The notes beneath the pieces were generated by a model, which worked only from the letters and a program-made list of their open reading frames with translations, ran no database searches and had not been told where the DNA came from. DNA of 46,548 nt, taken from positions 1 to 46,548 of the forward strand of contig QHYH01000121.1 in NCBI GenBank assembly GCA_003223215.1, given 5' to 3'. The stretch's first letter is position 1. The number at the start of each line of letters is the position of its first letter. The position numbers and the translations under genes were made by a program. This DNA is from Acidobacteriota bacterium. GTDB lineage: Bacteria; Acidobacteriota; Terriglobia; Acidiferrales; UBA7541. Positions 15,941-20,621 of the stretch are shown here, in pieces.

Positions 15941-17416
15941 TTGAGGTTGCACCGAGGGGGCCAGACGTTCAAAGAGTGGCATTGGTGGCACGGGCCGCCA
16001 TGGTCCCGGCGCAACGGGGAAATAGCTAGCGCAATAGCTGCTAAGAACGCTTCTCGCAGCCCGGCAACTGATCGCTTGATTTTTATAACGATAATCCTTT
16101 GTCTCTGCCTTGCTGCCTGCGAAAACGTTGCAACCACTCAGCCAATACAGGAGGAATCCCGCGTTGGGCGCCAGCGGAACGACGCGATCGCCATCACGAA
16201 CGTGACTCTCATAGATGTGGCGAGCGGTGCGCGGCAGACCGCGATGACGGTTTTGACTAAGGCTGGACAGATCTCCAATGTCGGCCGGGCCCTTTCCGTT
16301 CCAGAGGGAACCGCACGCGTGGACGGCACTGGAAAGTTTCTCATTCCCGGACTTTGGGACATGCACGCGCATCATCAGGCGACAGGACGGGATTCCCTAG
16401 ATTTGTATTTGGCAAATGGTGTGGTCGGCACTCGGGACATGGGGTCAGACGTTGAATTCATCCTTCCGCTCCGAGACCGCATCGACCGCGGCGAACTGCT
16501 CGGGCCCGAGATCGTTGCGGCGGGACCGATCCTCGACGATGCGCCACCAGACTGGCCGTTCCGGCGCCGCGTTTCCAACGCTCAGGACGCAGAAGCCGTC
16601 AGAGACCTCAAAAGACACGGCGTCGATTTCATCAAGGTGCACGACCATACGCCGCGCGACGCGTACTTCGCCATCGCGGACGAAGCTAGAAAGGTAGGTC
16701 TGCCGTTTGCCGGTCACGTTCCGATCGGTGTCACGGTCGAGGAGGCGGCCGACTCGGGAATCAAGAGTATCGAGCACCTGGCCAACTTTCGTGTATTCCG
16801 CGACTGTTCCGGAAACGAACCGTATAGCCCGGTCAGATGCCGGTCCCTATTCGAACGACTCGCTGCGAGAGGAGTGTGGGAAACTCCCACCATAACCTTC
16901 TCCAAACTAATCCCGGACCTATTCGTGGGCAAACCGCTGCCCCACGTCGAATTTGCCAGCGATTCGCTTCTCGAGCTCATACGCAAGAACGCGGAGGCTT
17001 CTAACCTTGACGAAGAAGGGCTGGCTTTTTTCCGCTCAAATTCCAGGACTAGCTTGGTTGCTATCCGCGACTTATTTGCGAGCGGCAATCACTTCCTAGC
17101 TGGTTGTGACGGTCTTGTGCCCGGTTTTTGTCTTCACGATGAACTGGAGGAAATGACCAGGGCGGGACTATCGCCCCTCCAGGCAATTCAGACCGCTACC
17201 ATTAATCCTGCGAAATTCCTCGGACGAGAAAAGATGCAAGGTACGATCGAGATTGGCAAGCGCGCCGATCTCGTGCTCCTCGAAGCTGACCCGTTGACGG
17301 ATATATCCAACACACGGCGCATTGACAGCGTAATGGTTCGCGGTCAGCTCTTTCTGAGACCACAAGTCGATCGAATCATTGCCGCTCACCGCGCGCATCC
17401 CCGCACCCGTAAGTAA
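15941..17416 (+). CDS. Exported amidohydrolase (imidazolonepropionase/prolidase-like), probable lipoprotein
   Basis: The C-terminal 420 residues form a complete metal-dependent amidohydrolase: IPGLWDMHAHHQ (HxH metal ligands), DFIKVHDHTPRD with the carboxylated-Lys position, PFAGHVPIG and SIEHLANF (His ligands), FLAGCDGLVPGF (Asp), and TINPAKFLGREKMQGTIEIG with KRADLVLLEADP at the end. Before it is LIFITIILCLCLAACENVAT, a lipobox with Cys after LAA, so the enzyme is likely anchored on the periplasmic side of a membrane. The start is unsure: no ATG is in frame and TTG 15941 would give an unusually long N-terminus, TTG 16075 a very short one. Substrate unknown; peptides or cyclic amides are typical. 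Confidence 0.85.
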   Translation: MRLHRGGQTFKEWHWWHGPPWSRRNGEIASAIAAKNASRSPATDRLIFITIILCLCLAACENVATTQPIQEESRVGRQRNDAIAITNVTLIDVASGARQTAMTVLTKAGQISNVGRALSVPEGTARVDGTGKFLIPGLWDMHAHHQATGRDSLDLYLANGVVGTRDMGSDVEFILPLRDRIDRGELLGPEIVAAGPILDDAPPDWPFRRRVSNAQDAEAVRDLKRHGVDFIKVHDHTPRDAYFAIADEARKVGLPFAGHVPIGVTVEEAADSGIKSIEHLANFRVFRDCSGNEPYSPVRCRSLFERLAARGVWETPTITFSKLIPDLFVGKPLPHVEFASDSLLELIRKNAEASNLDEEGLAFFRSNSRTSLVAIRDLFASGNHFLAGCDGLVPGFCLHDELEEMTRAGLSPLQAIQTATINPAKFLGREKMQGTIEIGKRADLVLLEADPLTDISNTRRIDSVMVRGQLFLRPQVDRIIAAHRAHPRTRK

Positions 17417-17542
17417 CCCTCACCCTTAGCCTCCAGCCCCTCAGTCTCACTCGTTAGCGGGCCAGCGCCGAAGTGCGCGTAAGGGACACTAAACGCGGCA
17501 TCGAGTTGGTCTTGTCCGGCTCGTTCGCACCTATGGACATTA

Positions 17543-17585
17543 CAAAGGAGAAGTGATAGCTTCCTTTGCAGTGTGCAAAGGAAGG
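17543..17585 (+). promoter_or_regulatory. padR leader: long dyad that contains the ribosome binding site, with an alternative partner
   Basis: CTTCCTTTGCA (17560-17570) and TGCAAAGGAAG (17574-17584) are perfect 11-bp arms around GTG. The right arm contains the AAAGGAAGG binding site of padR, 5 bases before ATG 17591. A third element, CAAAGGA (17543-17549), can pair with TCCTTTG (17562-17568) instead. In DNA this is a good PadR operator; in RNA it would be a hairpin that hides or frees the binding site. Confidence 0.65.
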
Positions 17586-17590
17586 ATTCC

Positions 17591-17938
17591 ATGACCGATG
17601 CAAAAAAGGCGGAAGTCCTGCAAGGGACGCTGGATCTGATGATTCTGAAGACGCTCGATGCGTTAGGGCCGCAACATGGGTTTGGGATAGCTCGGCGGAT
17701 CGAGCAGGTTAGCCGCGATGTGCTGCAGTTGAACGAGGGCACGGTGTATACGTCGTTGCTGCGGCTGATGCAGCAAGGGTGGATCACCGCGGAGTGGGGA
17801 ATCTCCGACAATAATCGCAAGGCCAAGTTTTACTCGATCACCGCGCGAGGCAAGAAGCAGCTTGCCGTGGAGACCGAGAATTGGCAGCGGATCTCCGGGG
17901 TGGTGGGGCGCCTGCTGCGATTGGAAGGAGAGAGGTAG
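17591..17938 (+). CDS. PadR-family transcriptional regulator
   Basis: The 115 residues match PadR: LQGTLDLMILKTLDALGPQH, GFGIARRIEQVSRDVLQLNE, GTVYTSLLRLMQQGWITAEW as the recognition helix and wing, then KAKFYSITARGKKQLAVETE. This short form, with one C-terminal helix for dimerisation, is the type found in front of ADOP permeases in Acidobacteriota, where it is taken to sense a compound exported or signalled by the permease. The permease gene begins 2 bases after its stop, so they form one operon. Self-regulation via the leader dyad is likely. Confidence 0.93.
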   Translation: MTDAKKAEVLQGTLDLMILKTLDALGPQHGFGIARRIEQVSRDVLQLNEGTVYTSLLRLMQQGWITAEWGISDNNRKAKFYSITARGKKQLAVETENWQRISGVVGRLLRLEGER

Positions 17939-17940
17939 CC

Positions 17941-20621
17941 ATGGACAACGTGCGGATTTCCAGGCTACGGGCGTTTGCGGCGAGGTTACGCGGACTCTTC
18001 GATGTGCAAAAGCGAGACAACGACTTTGGCGAAGAGGTGAAAGTGCATCTGCAGTTGCTGGTGGATCGCTTTGTGACGCAAGGAATGTCGCGGGAGGAGG
18101 CCGCCGAGGCGGCGCGACGTCAGTTCGGGAATACGACAATTTTGCAGGAAGACCGGAGGGAACTGAGGACCTTCGTATCGGTAGAGGATCTCGGCCGCGA
18201 CGTACGCTACGCGCTGCGCAGCCTCGCCCGAAGCCGTGCATTTGCCGCGGTAGCCATCGCGACGCTGGGATTAGCGATCGGCGCCTCGACCGCGATTTTC
18301 AGCGTGATCGAAAATGTGTTGCTGGAGCCGTTCCCTTATAAGGGTGCGAGCCGCATGGTATTTCTGCGGATTCACGATACCACCCGGGGGGAGGAAGGGG
18401 ACCGTCAGGGATACACATCAAATGAATTTCTGGAATTTGACCAGCAGAACCACGTATTTGACGCCGTCATCGCGGCTTCTGACGATCCCGTGCTCTATAA
18501 GCAAGGAGAAGGCGTCGAGTTGCTTGATGGAGCGGACGTGACGCCGGGCACATTCGAATTCTTTGGTATGCCAGCTCTACACGGTCGTGTGCTGCAACCG
18601 GCAGATTACCAGCCGGGAGCGCCGCCGGTATTCGTGATGCGGCAGAAGACGTGGATGGAGCGTTTCAACGGCGATCCGGGAGTTTTGAACAAGACTTTTG
18701 TGCTGAATGGAACAGCACGAACGCTCATCGGAATCATGCCGCCGCGCTTTGGATGGTATGGGGCGGATGTTTGGATTCCGGAGACACCCATTCCGGGAGC
18801 GGCCATCGGCGGTGCGGGGTCAACGCGGCGCTGGTTTCTACTTTCTACTGGGGCGATTGAAGCCGGGCGTCTCCAAGCCGCAAGCTGCGGCGGATGCGAC
18901 GGTTATTGCCAACCAGCTGGCGAAAATCAATGCGCAGGACTATCCCGAGCACTTCCATGTGTTGGTTAAGGCGTTGGGGGATACGGTTATAGGGCGATTC
19001 GAATCGACGCTGTACACGATTCTAGCGGCGGTTGGACTGTTGCTTCTGATCGGCTGCGGCAACGTGGCGAATCTCATGCTGGCGCGAGCGACGTCACGAG
19101 AGAAGGAATTCGCCTTACGCGCGGTGTTGGGAGCCGGGCGCGCGCGACTGGTGCGACTCCTGCTGGTCGAGAGTCTCGTGTTAGCGATCGGTGGAGCGGC
19201 GCTGGGCGTGCTGATTGCATGGGGTGGATTGAAATTGATTGTGGCTGCAATGCCACAGAATTTTATCCCAGCGGAATCCGTCATTGAGCTGAACGCGCCG
19301 GTGATGGCTTTCACGTTGGCTGTGGCTGTCTTGATCGCCCTGACTTTCGGATTGGCGCCGGCGCTGCGGGCTGCGCGGCGCGATCTAAACGATCCACTAC
19401 GCGACAGCGGCAAGGGAGTGATCGGCGGACTTCGCACTGGCCGGATGCGCGATACCGTGGTGGTCGCGGAAGTCGCTGACGCTGCTGATCGGCGCGGGGC
19501 TCTTGATGCGGAGCTTTGCAGCGCTGCGCGAGGTGCATTTTGGACTGCAGGCGGACGACGTCTTACAGACACTATTGCTGTTGCCTGAGGATCGCTATAA
19601 AACGGCGACACAAGTCCGCGGGTTTTTCCAGCCGCTGCTTGCGCGCGTGAAGACCCTTCCCGGAGTCGTGGACGCGGCTGCATCAAGCACACTGCCACCG
19701 TCCGGCGGTGAGGACAGCACGATAGAGATCTCTGGCAAGTCCCACGAGCACGAATGGCACGCACTGGTACAACAAGTGAGCGAAGGATATTTCCGGGTGC
19801 TGCGGATCCCGTTCAAGGTGGGACGGTCATTCGCTGAAGAAGAAATCAACGACGCAAGAAAAGTGGCGGTGGTGAATGAGACGTTTGTATCCGGTTTCCT
19901 TCGCGGTGACGATCCGATGGGGCGTCGAATCAAGCTGGCGGGGCTAGGGACCCCTGCGGATCCGGTGAGCGAGCCCTCGTTTGAAATCGTGGGGGTGGTG
20001 GCGGACGTGACTAATAGCGGTCTCGAGGCTCCAGTTCAACCGGAAATCTGGATACCGTATACCGTCACAGGTTCGGGAACGCAGGTTCTGATGGTACGCT
20101 CGGAGCAAACGCCAATGTCGCTGATGAATGCCGTACGTCAGGCGGTTTGGGCGACCGATGTCGGAGTGGCTCTGGCTCTTCCGGGCGCACTGGAGGATCG
20201 CATCAGTCAACGGTTGTATGCGGGCCCCCGCTTTGCCTTCCTGCCGATGGCCATTTTTGGATGCCTTGGGCTGGTTCTTGTCACCGGGGGCGTTTATAGC
20301 GTTCTGGCCTACGCGACATCGCGCAAGACGCATGAGATCGGAATACGCATCGCGTTGGGTGCGGAGCGTGCCGACGTGCTTCGCTTGGTAGTAAGGGCGG
20401 GTTTGCGCCTGGTGACCGCCGGAGTCGGAATTGGATTGCTCGTGAGCCTGCTGCTGGGGCGTACAATCGAGGCGCAGCTGGCGCGTGGTGTGAAACCGTA
20501 CGATCCGGAGACCTTAGCCGGCACGACCCTGCTGTTGATAGTAACCGCTGCGTTGGCGTGCTGGGTTCCGGCGAGAAGAGCAGCGCGAGTAGACCCGATG
20601 GTGGCCCTGCGTTATGAATAG
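17941..20621 (+). pseudogene. ADOP-type ABC transporter permease, two frameshifts
   Basis: Three frames join to an 894-codon permease of normal ADOP length. The N-terminal cytoplasmic part (FGEEVKVHLQLLVDRFVTQG, then AARRQFGN) is specific to PadR-linked acidobacterial permeases, followed by VRYALRSLARSRAFAAVAIA and the first transmembrane helix, a MacB-type periplasmic domain, four-helix FtsX units (LAAVGLLLLIGCGNVANLML and FLPMAIFGCLGLVLVTGGVY) and the closing VPARRAARVDPMVALRYE. The first break is one extra base near 18834-18838 (expected FYFLLGRLKPGV), the second a loss of two bases, probably GC, near 19475 (expected EVALTLLIGAGLLMRSF). No ATPase gene is adjacent, as usual for these orphan permeases. 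As given, the gene cannot make a full protein. Confidence 0.82.

Follow-up and report, generated by a model that had tools for sequence, protein, structure and literature searches.

The leader of a padR gene in an Acidobacteriota genome raises the question of whether a long inverted repeat that runs into the ribosome binding site works in the DNA, as an operator, or in the RNA, as a switch of translation. We examined this leader within a window of 46,548 bases, the whole stretch of DNA that was analysed. The gene (17591..17938, + strand) encodes a 115-aa protein that scores 139 bits against TIGR03433 padR_acidobact (cut-off 101.8) and 65.4 bits against PF03551 (cut-off 27), and that matches 41 distinct sequences of solved structures at E 0.01 or better, the best of them named PadR-like. 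Upstream of it lie two perfect 11-bp arms, CTTCCTTTGCA (17560-17570) and TGCAAAGGAAG (17574-17584), which enclose the loop GTG and are followed by GATTCC and then the padR ATG at 17591. An earlier sequence-only reading had described these arms, the loop and the 6-base distance to the ATG correctly; it had also taken the right arm for the Shine-Dalgarno sequence, and the Shine-Dalgarno sequence assigned here, AAAGGAAGG (17577..17585, + strand), does overlap that arm. No other perfect 11-bp inverted repeat with a loop of 3-8 bases is present in the window. Two of ten first-order Markov copies of the window contained one such repeat and eight contained none; taken alone, the repeat is only mildly unlikely, and its weight comes from relatives rather than from the repeat itself.

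The sequence-only reading counted three pairing elements, namely the two arms and a CAAAGGA at 17543-17549 that can pair with the middle strand of the repeat. All three are present, but the count is incomplete, since a fourth half-site, CCTATGG (17530-17536), had been overlooked and completes an upstream dyad, CCTATGG-acatt-ACAAAGG. The leader contains two 19-bp dyads of the pattern CCTNTKG-N5-CMANAGG, with centres 33 bp apart. The upstream predicted PadR operator, op1 (17530..17548, + strand; second half-site ACAAAGG at 17542-17548), has 5/7 arm pairs and is centred on 17539. The downstream predicted operator, op2 (CCTTTGC-agtgt-GCAAAGG, 17563..17581, + strand; half-sites at 17563-17569 and 17575-17581), has 7/7 arm pairs and is centred on 17572; the perfect repeat reaches beyond it on both sides, and the Shine-Dalgarno sequence overlaps its right half-site. 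Within op1, CCTATGGACATT is invariant in the orthologues L070 and L071 (90-91% identical). Judged from such comparisons, the repeat is very probably the downstream member of a pair of DNA operators through which PadR represses its own promoter, with its last half-site doubling as the Shine-Dalgarno sequence. We prefer a DNA operator to an RNA switch because the predicted transcription start lies inside the repeat and because relatives keep both sites while the start codon moves.

The evidence for two operators comes from padR leaders at large. A first set was drawn from 69 PadR places of the window's own genome and 49 relatives among the matches listed from 61 genomes, the window itself being excluded. 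Starts were set for 67 own-genome places and the 49 relatives, giving 116 leaders (L045 and L055 were assigned the nearest ATG, and L061 and L063 were dropped), of which 114 were long enough upstream to score (L022 and L079 were too short). The score measures likeness among the four half-sites, with a threshold of 27. When dyad spacings of 20-55 bp were compared, a peak appeared at 33 bp, where 37/116 leaders scored at least 27, with 9 leaders at 32 bp, 10 at 34 bp and 0-3 at the others. Allowing 32-34 bp, 55/114 leaders reached the threshold (16 of the 67 own-genome leaders and 39 of the 49 from relatives), against a mean of 0.4 and a maximum of 3 in 20 shuffled rounds, a comparison that overstates independence because the leaders are related by descent; 18 of the 55 remain at <75% identity. 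The other 59/114 leaders fall below the threshold and count against the two-operator reading. In the tests of spacing, threshold and same-strand covariation, leaders were selected partly on the resemblance of op1 to op2, and the spacing peak is weaker when this resemblance plays no part in the selection (21 leaders at 33 bp, 11 at 39 bp). With leaders chosen by symmetry and the -35 slot alone, the likeness of op1 to op2 was 20.12/28 within leaders versus 16.72 across leaders (sd 0.31, n=64).

A second set, built from related loci of named genomes, covered 80 of 144 and yielded 78 scored leaders; L165, where no start was found, and L209, with 9 bases upstream, were not scored. Here 56/78 leaders scored at least 27 with both dyads ending at or before the start codon, one of them (L199) in another register, and the new part, once the 13 places already in the first set were removed, gave 44/65. 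Terracidiphilus gabretensis S55 (L161) and Granulicella aggregans (L162) are two named relatives that carry this module. We also searched with a pattern consisting of op1, the gap and the left half of op2, allowing up to two mismatches. It found 43 matches in 19/36 genomes of the genus, where the reversed control pattern found 0; the 43 matches represent 39 places, the remaining 4 being the same place read again through the palindrome. The 30 loci inspected from these matches correspond to 29 distinct places, and in 28 of them a padR frame follows, at +57 to +97. Among 200 genomes of the class, 34 had a match and 4 a match to the control. The part of the sequence-only reading that placed an operator in the DNA is strongly supported by these comparisons.

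Alignment of the 55 high-scoring leaders places the promoter relative to the dyads. The -35 slot, TGGACA (17534..17539, + strand), lies inside op1, and the -10 slot, TAGCTT (17557..17562, + strand), follows after 17 bp and abuts op2. The window's copy is weak against the consensus (-35, 5/6; -10, 3/6 to TATAAT, counted by hand), and a plain consensus scan of 17350-17700 returned no promoter, so the assignment of both slots rests on comparison. Over the 55 leaders the -35 slot reads T 55, T 38/G 17, G 53, A 39, C 39, A 38. The hexamer directly upstream of op2, taken as the -10 slot, has T 36, A 45, T 27, C 20, C 27 and T 53. The best -10 lies at a 17-bp spacer in 33/37 leaders with 33-bp dyad spacing, at 16 bp in 7/9 leaders with 32-bp spacing, and at 17 bp (6) or 18 bp (3) in 9 leaders with 34-bp spacing. 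In the 18 leaders at <75% identity, the -35 slot is unchanged and the -10 slot is weaker (first T 7/18, A 12, last T 16). The sequences show that two dyads occur before padR genes, and that the distances between the dyads and from them to the -35 and -10 slots are fixed; we infer the start point, binding by the adjacent PadR, and repression. The -10 slot, together with relatives that have their ATG at the centre of op2, predicts a transcription start at about 17569-17571 (+ strand), inside op2, and with such a start the left arm would be absent from the message.

We consider these relatives the best available evidence on the start point; they belong to a series in which the start codon moves and the operators stay. 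In L072, L073 and L099 (PadR 86, 84 and 82% identical), op2 ends 39, 30 and 40 nt before the ATG. Six other relatives (L174, L176, L179, L192, L194 and L202) have their ATG at the centre of op2, where the window has 17571, and codons 2-4 (Ser/Pro-Lys-Gly/Glu) contain the right half-site; once op2 is allowed to cover the ATG, their leaders score 28-34. The distance from the -10-like hexamer to the ATG, read by eye, is 7 nt in L174, L176, L179 and L192 and 9 nt in L194 and L202. Such short distances point to a start at the position corresponding to 17571 or immediately upstream of it, and the six genes are probably leaderless. Inside the six genes, upstream of the conserved LQGT motif, there is no later start codon except GTG/CTG at the motif itself. 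Further in-frame starts lie upstream in three of the six (L176, ATG at 4 and 8 codons; L179, GTG at 18; L194, ATG at 13), and these codons, which would precede the predicted start, slightly lower our confidence in the two-operator reading. L168, L169, L178, L184 and L196 likewise have an AAAG-containing half-site after the ATG but score low, and L231 (score 28), whose GTG falls in the middle of a dyad of different letters, was excluded from the six. In 44/55 leaders the right half-site of op2 is Shine-Dalgarno-like and ends 3-14 nt before the start codon. The overlap of the Shine-Dalgarno sequence with op2 is real and common, but it is a consequence of the layout. With the start codon moving in this way, leaderless and Shine-Dalgarno-led forms of one gene are available in nature for comparison.

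The sequence-only reading had further proposed that the element acts as a translational switch, in which the leader RNA would alternate between a hairpin that masks the Shine-Dalgarno sequence and an upstream pairing, with padR translation under the control of PadR or of a signal; we now hold this to be very unlikely. The RNA of 17530-17620 does fold well below shuffles (MFE -29.1 kcal/mol, z -3.39, 0/200 shuffles as stable), and its MFE structure pairs the right half of op1 with the left half of op2 and the left half of op1 with the right half of op2, bearing out the predicted upstream pairing of CAAAGGA. However, the left arm lies outside the predicted message, and RNA from 17569 shows no structure beyond shuffles (z 0.29; 115/200 as stable). 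The right arm being the Shine-Dalgarno sequence, the window's op2 hairpin of -14.3 kcal/mol, tied third strongest of 55, the 7/7 op2 arm pairs kept in L071, and the one compensated pair in L075, which also has 7/7, all fit a switch, but a DNA dyad predicts the strong hairpin, its retention and the compensation too. Pairing is kept less well in other homologues: L072, L073 and L099 retain the two dyads with 5/7, 4/7 and 5/7 op2 arm pairs and hairpins of only -3.2, -3.8 and -1.6 kcal/mol, far from the ATG, and L074 has 4/7. The arms of L072, L073 and L099 vary without full compensation.

Counts of symmetry over all 55 leaders, treated without correction for descent, point the same way: op2 is no more symmetric than op1, although op1 lies upstream of the predicted start (mean arm pairs 5.25/7 in op2 and 5.51/7 in op1; perfect in 6 and 11 leaders). 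RNA stability points in the opposite direction, op2 being slightly more stable than op1 (medians -7.5 and -5.6 kcal/mol), with 7/55 op2 hairpins weaker than -4. G-T mismatches are not enriched, making up 16/96 non-Watson-Crick cells in op2 and 11/82 in op1. In the 37 leaders with 33-bp spacing, again without correction for descent, same-strand half-sites covary at four positions (z 3.2-5.2) as strongly as inverted ones do, and since same-strand half-sites are unable to pair in RNA, this covariation is explained by protein binding and not by RNA pairing. No Rfam family reached its gathering score in 17300-17800, where the single weak match (RF02195, 16.5 bits against 40 required) looks like chance. 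A switch in RNA was rejected as the main reading on dyad symmetry, the RNA from 17569, the mismatches and the covariation.

An unlikely alternative, to which we would give slightly more room, is that the repeat insulates padR from read-through, such that transcripts arriving from the upstream gene mask the Shine-Dalgarno sequence and only those from the padR promoter are translated. Layouts of this kind are found in phage T4 lysozyme and IS10. The upstream amidohydrolase gene (15941-17416) is co-directional with padR, a scan of 17350-17700 found no terminator, and the MFE structure of the longer RNA 17420-17640 also pairs the Shine-Dalgarno sequence. Yet this long RNA is only mildly below shuffles (z -1.42, 13/200 as stable), and leaders with a co-directional upstream gene do not have stronger op2 hairpins than the others classed (median -4.3, n=11, versus -6.0, n=15; p 0.36), a coarse test in that 28/54 leaders, the window included, were unclassed or too short. 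Chance overlap of a repeat with the Shine-Dalgarno sequence, which the two repeat-bearing Markov copies might seem to allow, is scarcely credible, being contradicted by the fixed-spacing two-dyad module before padR in the genus, the class and the named genomes.

Under the preferred reading of two DNA operators, one PadR dimer would sit on op1 over the -35 slot and another on op2 over the start, about three helical turns apart, and the two bound dimers together would exclude RNA polymerase until some ligand releases PadR. Transcription would then begin inside op2, and the message would keep only the right half-site, which would serve as the padR Shine-Dalgarno sequence. What appeared to be an RNA switch would thereby become a readable DNA control part, from which the targets of individual PadR proteins in Acidobacteriota could be predicted.

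The ADOP permease gene (17941..20621, + strand), which begins 2 nt after the padR stop codon, is broken in frame twice; its pieces, in three frames, align to consecutive segments of TIGR03434. Compared with G025, 7 nt are duplicated in tandem near 18835 in the window copy and 8 nt are deleted near 19473; padR and both dyads are intact beside it. In G017 the ADOP gene is broken at other places. Stop-to-stop frames after padR measure 969 aa in G025, 896 aa in G018 and 935 aa in G060, the G018 frame being only 38% identical to that of G025. The window's ADOP gene is either decaying or affected by assembly errors. Joint control of PadR and the permease, as put forward by the sequence-only reading, is plausible for the family, but the frame that would be controlled here is broken by the two indels.

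The recognition-helix segment of the window's PadR is NEGTVYTSLLR, and across leaders the helix varies together with the half-site. NEGTVYTS/AS occurs with CCT(T/A)TGG, NQGTLYPA with CCTGTTG, NQGTIYAS with CCTGTGG, NAGSLFLA with CCTCTTG, and NYGTLYPA with CCTATTG (two leaders); some leaders are mixed. Over 98 distinct leaders, residue 49 is associated with half-site base 4, Q with G in 220/264 half-sites, E with T/A in 83/88, A with C in 21/28 and Y with A in 7/8. Only 5 changes of residue 49 are needed on the PadR tree, so the independent evidence for this association is thin. The association bears on the putative binding of op1 and op2 by the adjacent PadR. We are evenly divided on whether many Acidobacteriota PadR self-repressors share one promoter part, with specificity set mainly by residue 49 (base 4) and residues 54-55 (base 6). 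If they do, which we rate no higher and no lower, dyads 32-34 bp apart would hold the -35, the -10 and the start, with the DNA part fixed and the start codon free; the half-site would be the Shine-Dalgarno sequence in most, codons 2-4 in the probably leaderless relatives and plain leader elsewhere, a generalization that we would accept or reject with equal readiness. PadR groups with different half-sites would then act side by side without cross-talk, and the helix-to-half-site table makes such a code directly testable. The window's own genome (8.8 Mb) shows a very large paralogue expansion, with 54 matches over the TIGR03433 cut-off. A looser pattern (up to three mismatches), run on this genome for targets in trans, had no power, giving 55 matches against 63 for the reversed control; the 8 matches with at most two mismatches comprise 6 at padR leaders, two of these being the same site matched on either strand, and 2 elsewhere.

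PadR proteins bind ATGT-N8/10-ACAT inverted repeats (PMC3506622, PMC5428041), and relatives bind such repeats in the promoters of their own genes as well as over -10/-35 elements (PMC3506622, PMC5428041, PMC4534193). Like them, the window has an inverted repeat at the regulator's own promoter, with one dyad covering the -35 slot and the other the predicted start. The core of op2, CTTT-N9-AAAG, is comparable to ATGT-N8/10-ACAT, but the ATGT/ACAT letters are absent from op1 and op2, whose half-sites are CCTNTKG-like (CCTATGG, CCTTTGC). LmrR of Lactococcus lactis, in the accessible text, binds its own lmrR promoter and the lmrCD promoter, with footprints to the putative -10/-35 of lmrCD, and the lmrCD operator carries two LmrR dimers (PMC5428041, PMC4534193). 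The window's protein shares with LmrR the PadR fold and inverted repeats at its own promoter, and is likewise a predicted self-repressor. In contrast, the two LmrR dimers share one repeat of the ATGT-N8/10-ACAT motif, as those excerpts have it, whereas the window has two full dyads 33 bp apart that contain the -35 and the predicted start, with CCTNTKG half-sites, the last of which is the Shine-Dalgarno sequence. In Bacillus cereus, bcPadR1 (BC4206) binds its own promoter region, and a degenerate ATGT-N10-ATAA lies in the BC4206-4207 promoter (PMC3506622, in the part consulted). The location of the repeat in the regulator's own promoter region is the same, but that repeat is single and degenerate, and no two-dyad promoter is described in that part of the paper. 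The locus resembles padR_acidobact (TIGR03433)/ADOP (TIGR03434) pairs in having a PadR above the cut-off with an ADOP gene next to it, and differs in that its ADOP gene is frame-broken. Such pairs are numerous in Acidobacteriota, and our search of the open PMC literature found no paper describing their operators.

Several single loci extend these observations. L138 (from 1500, G027), the exception among the inspected pattern matches, has a zero-mismatch module followed, near the contig end, by another frame in place of padR, which we take to resemble a transposase start. L229, from a record titled Deltaproteobacteria MAG, has a module whose dyads are identical to each other, CCTCTTGacatcCCACAGG, ahead of a PadR with 61% identity, reflecting either transfer or a mislabelled bin. 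Other PadR branches (L008, L036, L058 and L062; L010, L012 and L018) have different promoter repeats, for example TCTACAAT...TTGTAGAT and TTACCGAG...CTCGGTTACCGAG, which suggests other operator types within the same family. In G017 (L151, 1579, + strand), a second padR module with CCTCTTG half-sites is divergent from the orthologue of the window module, at a distance of about 40 bp.
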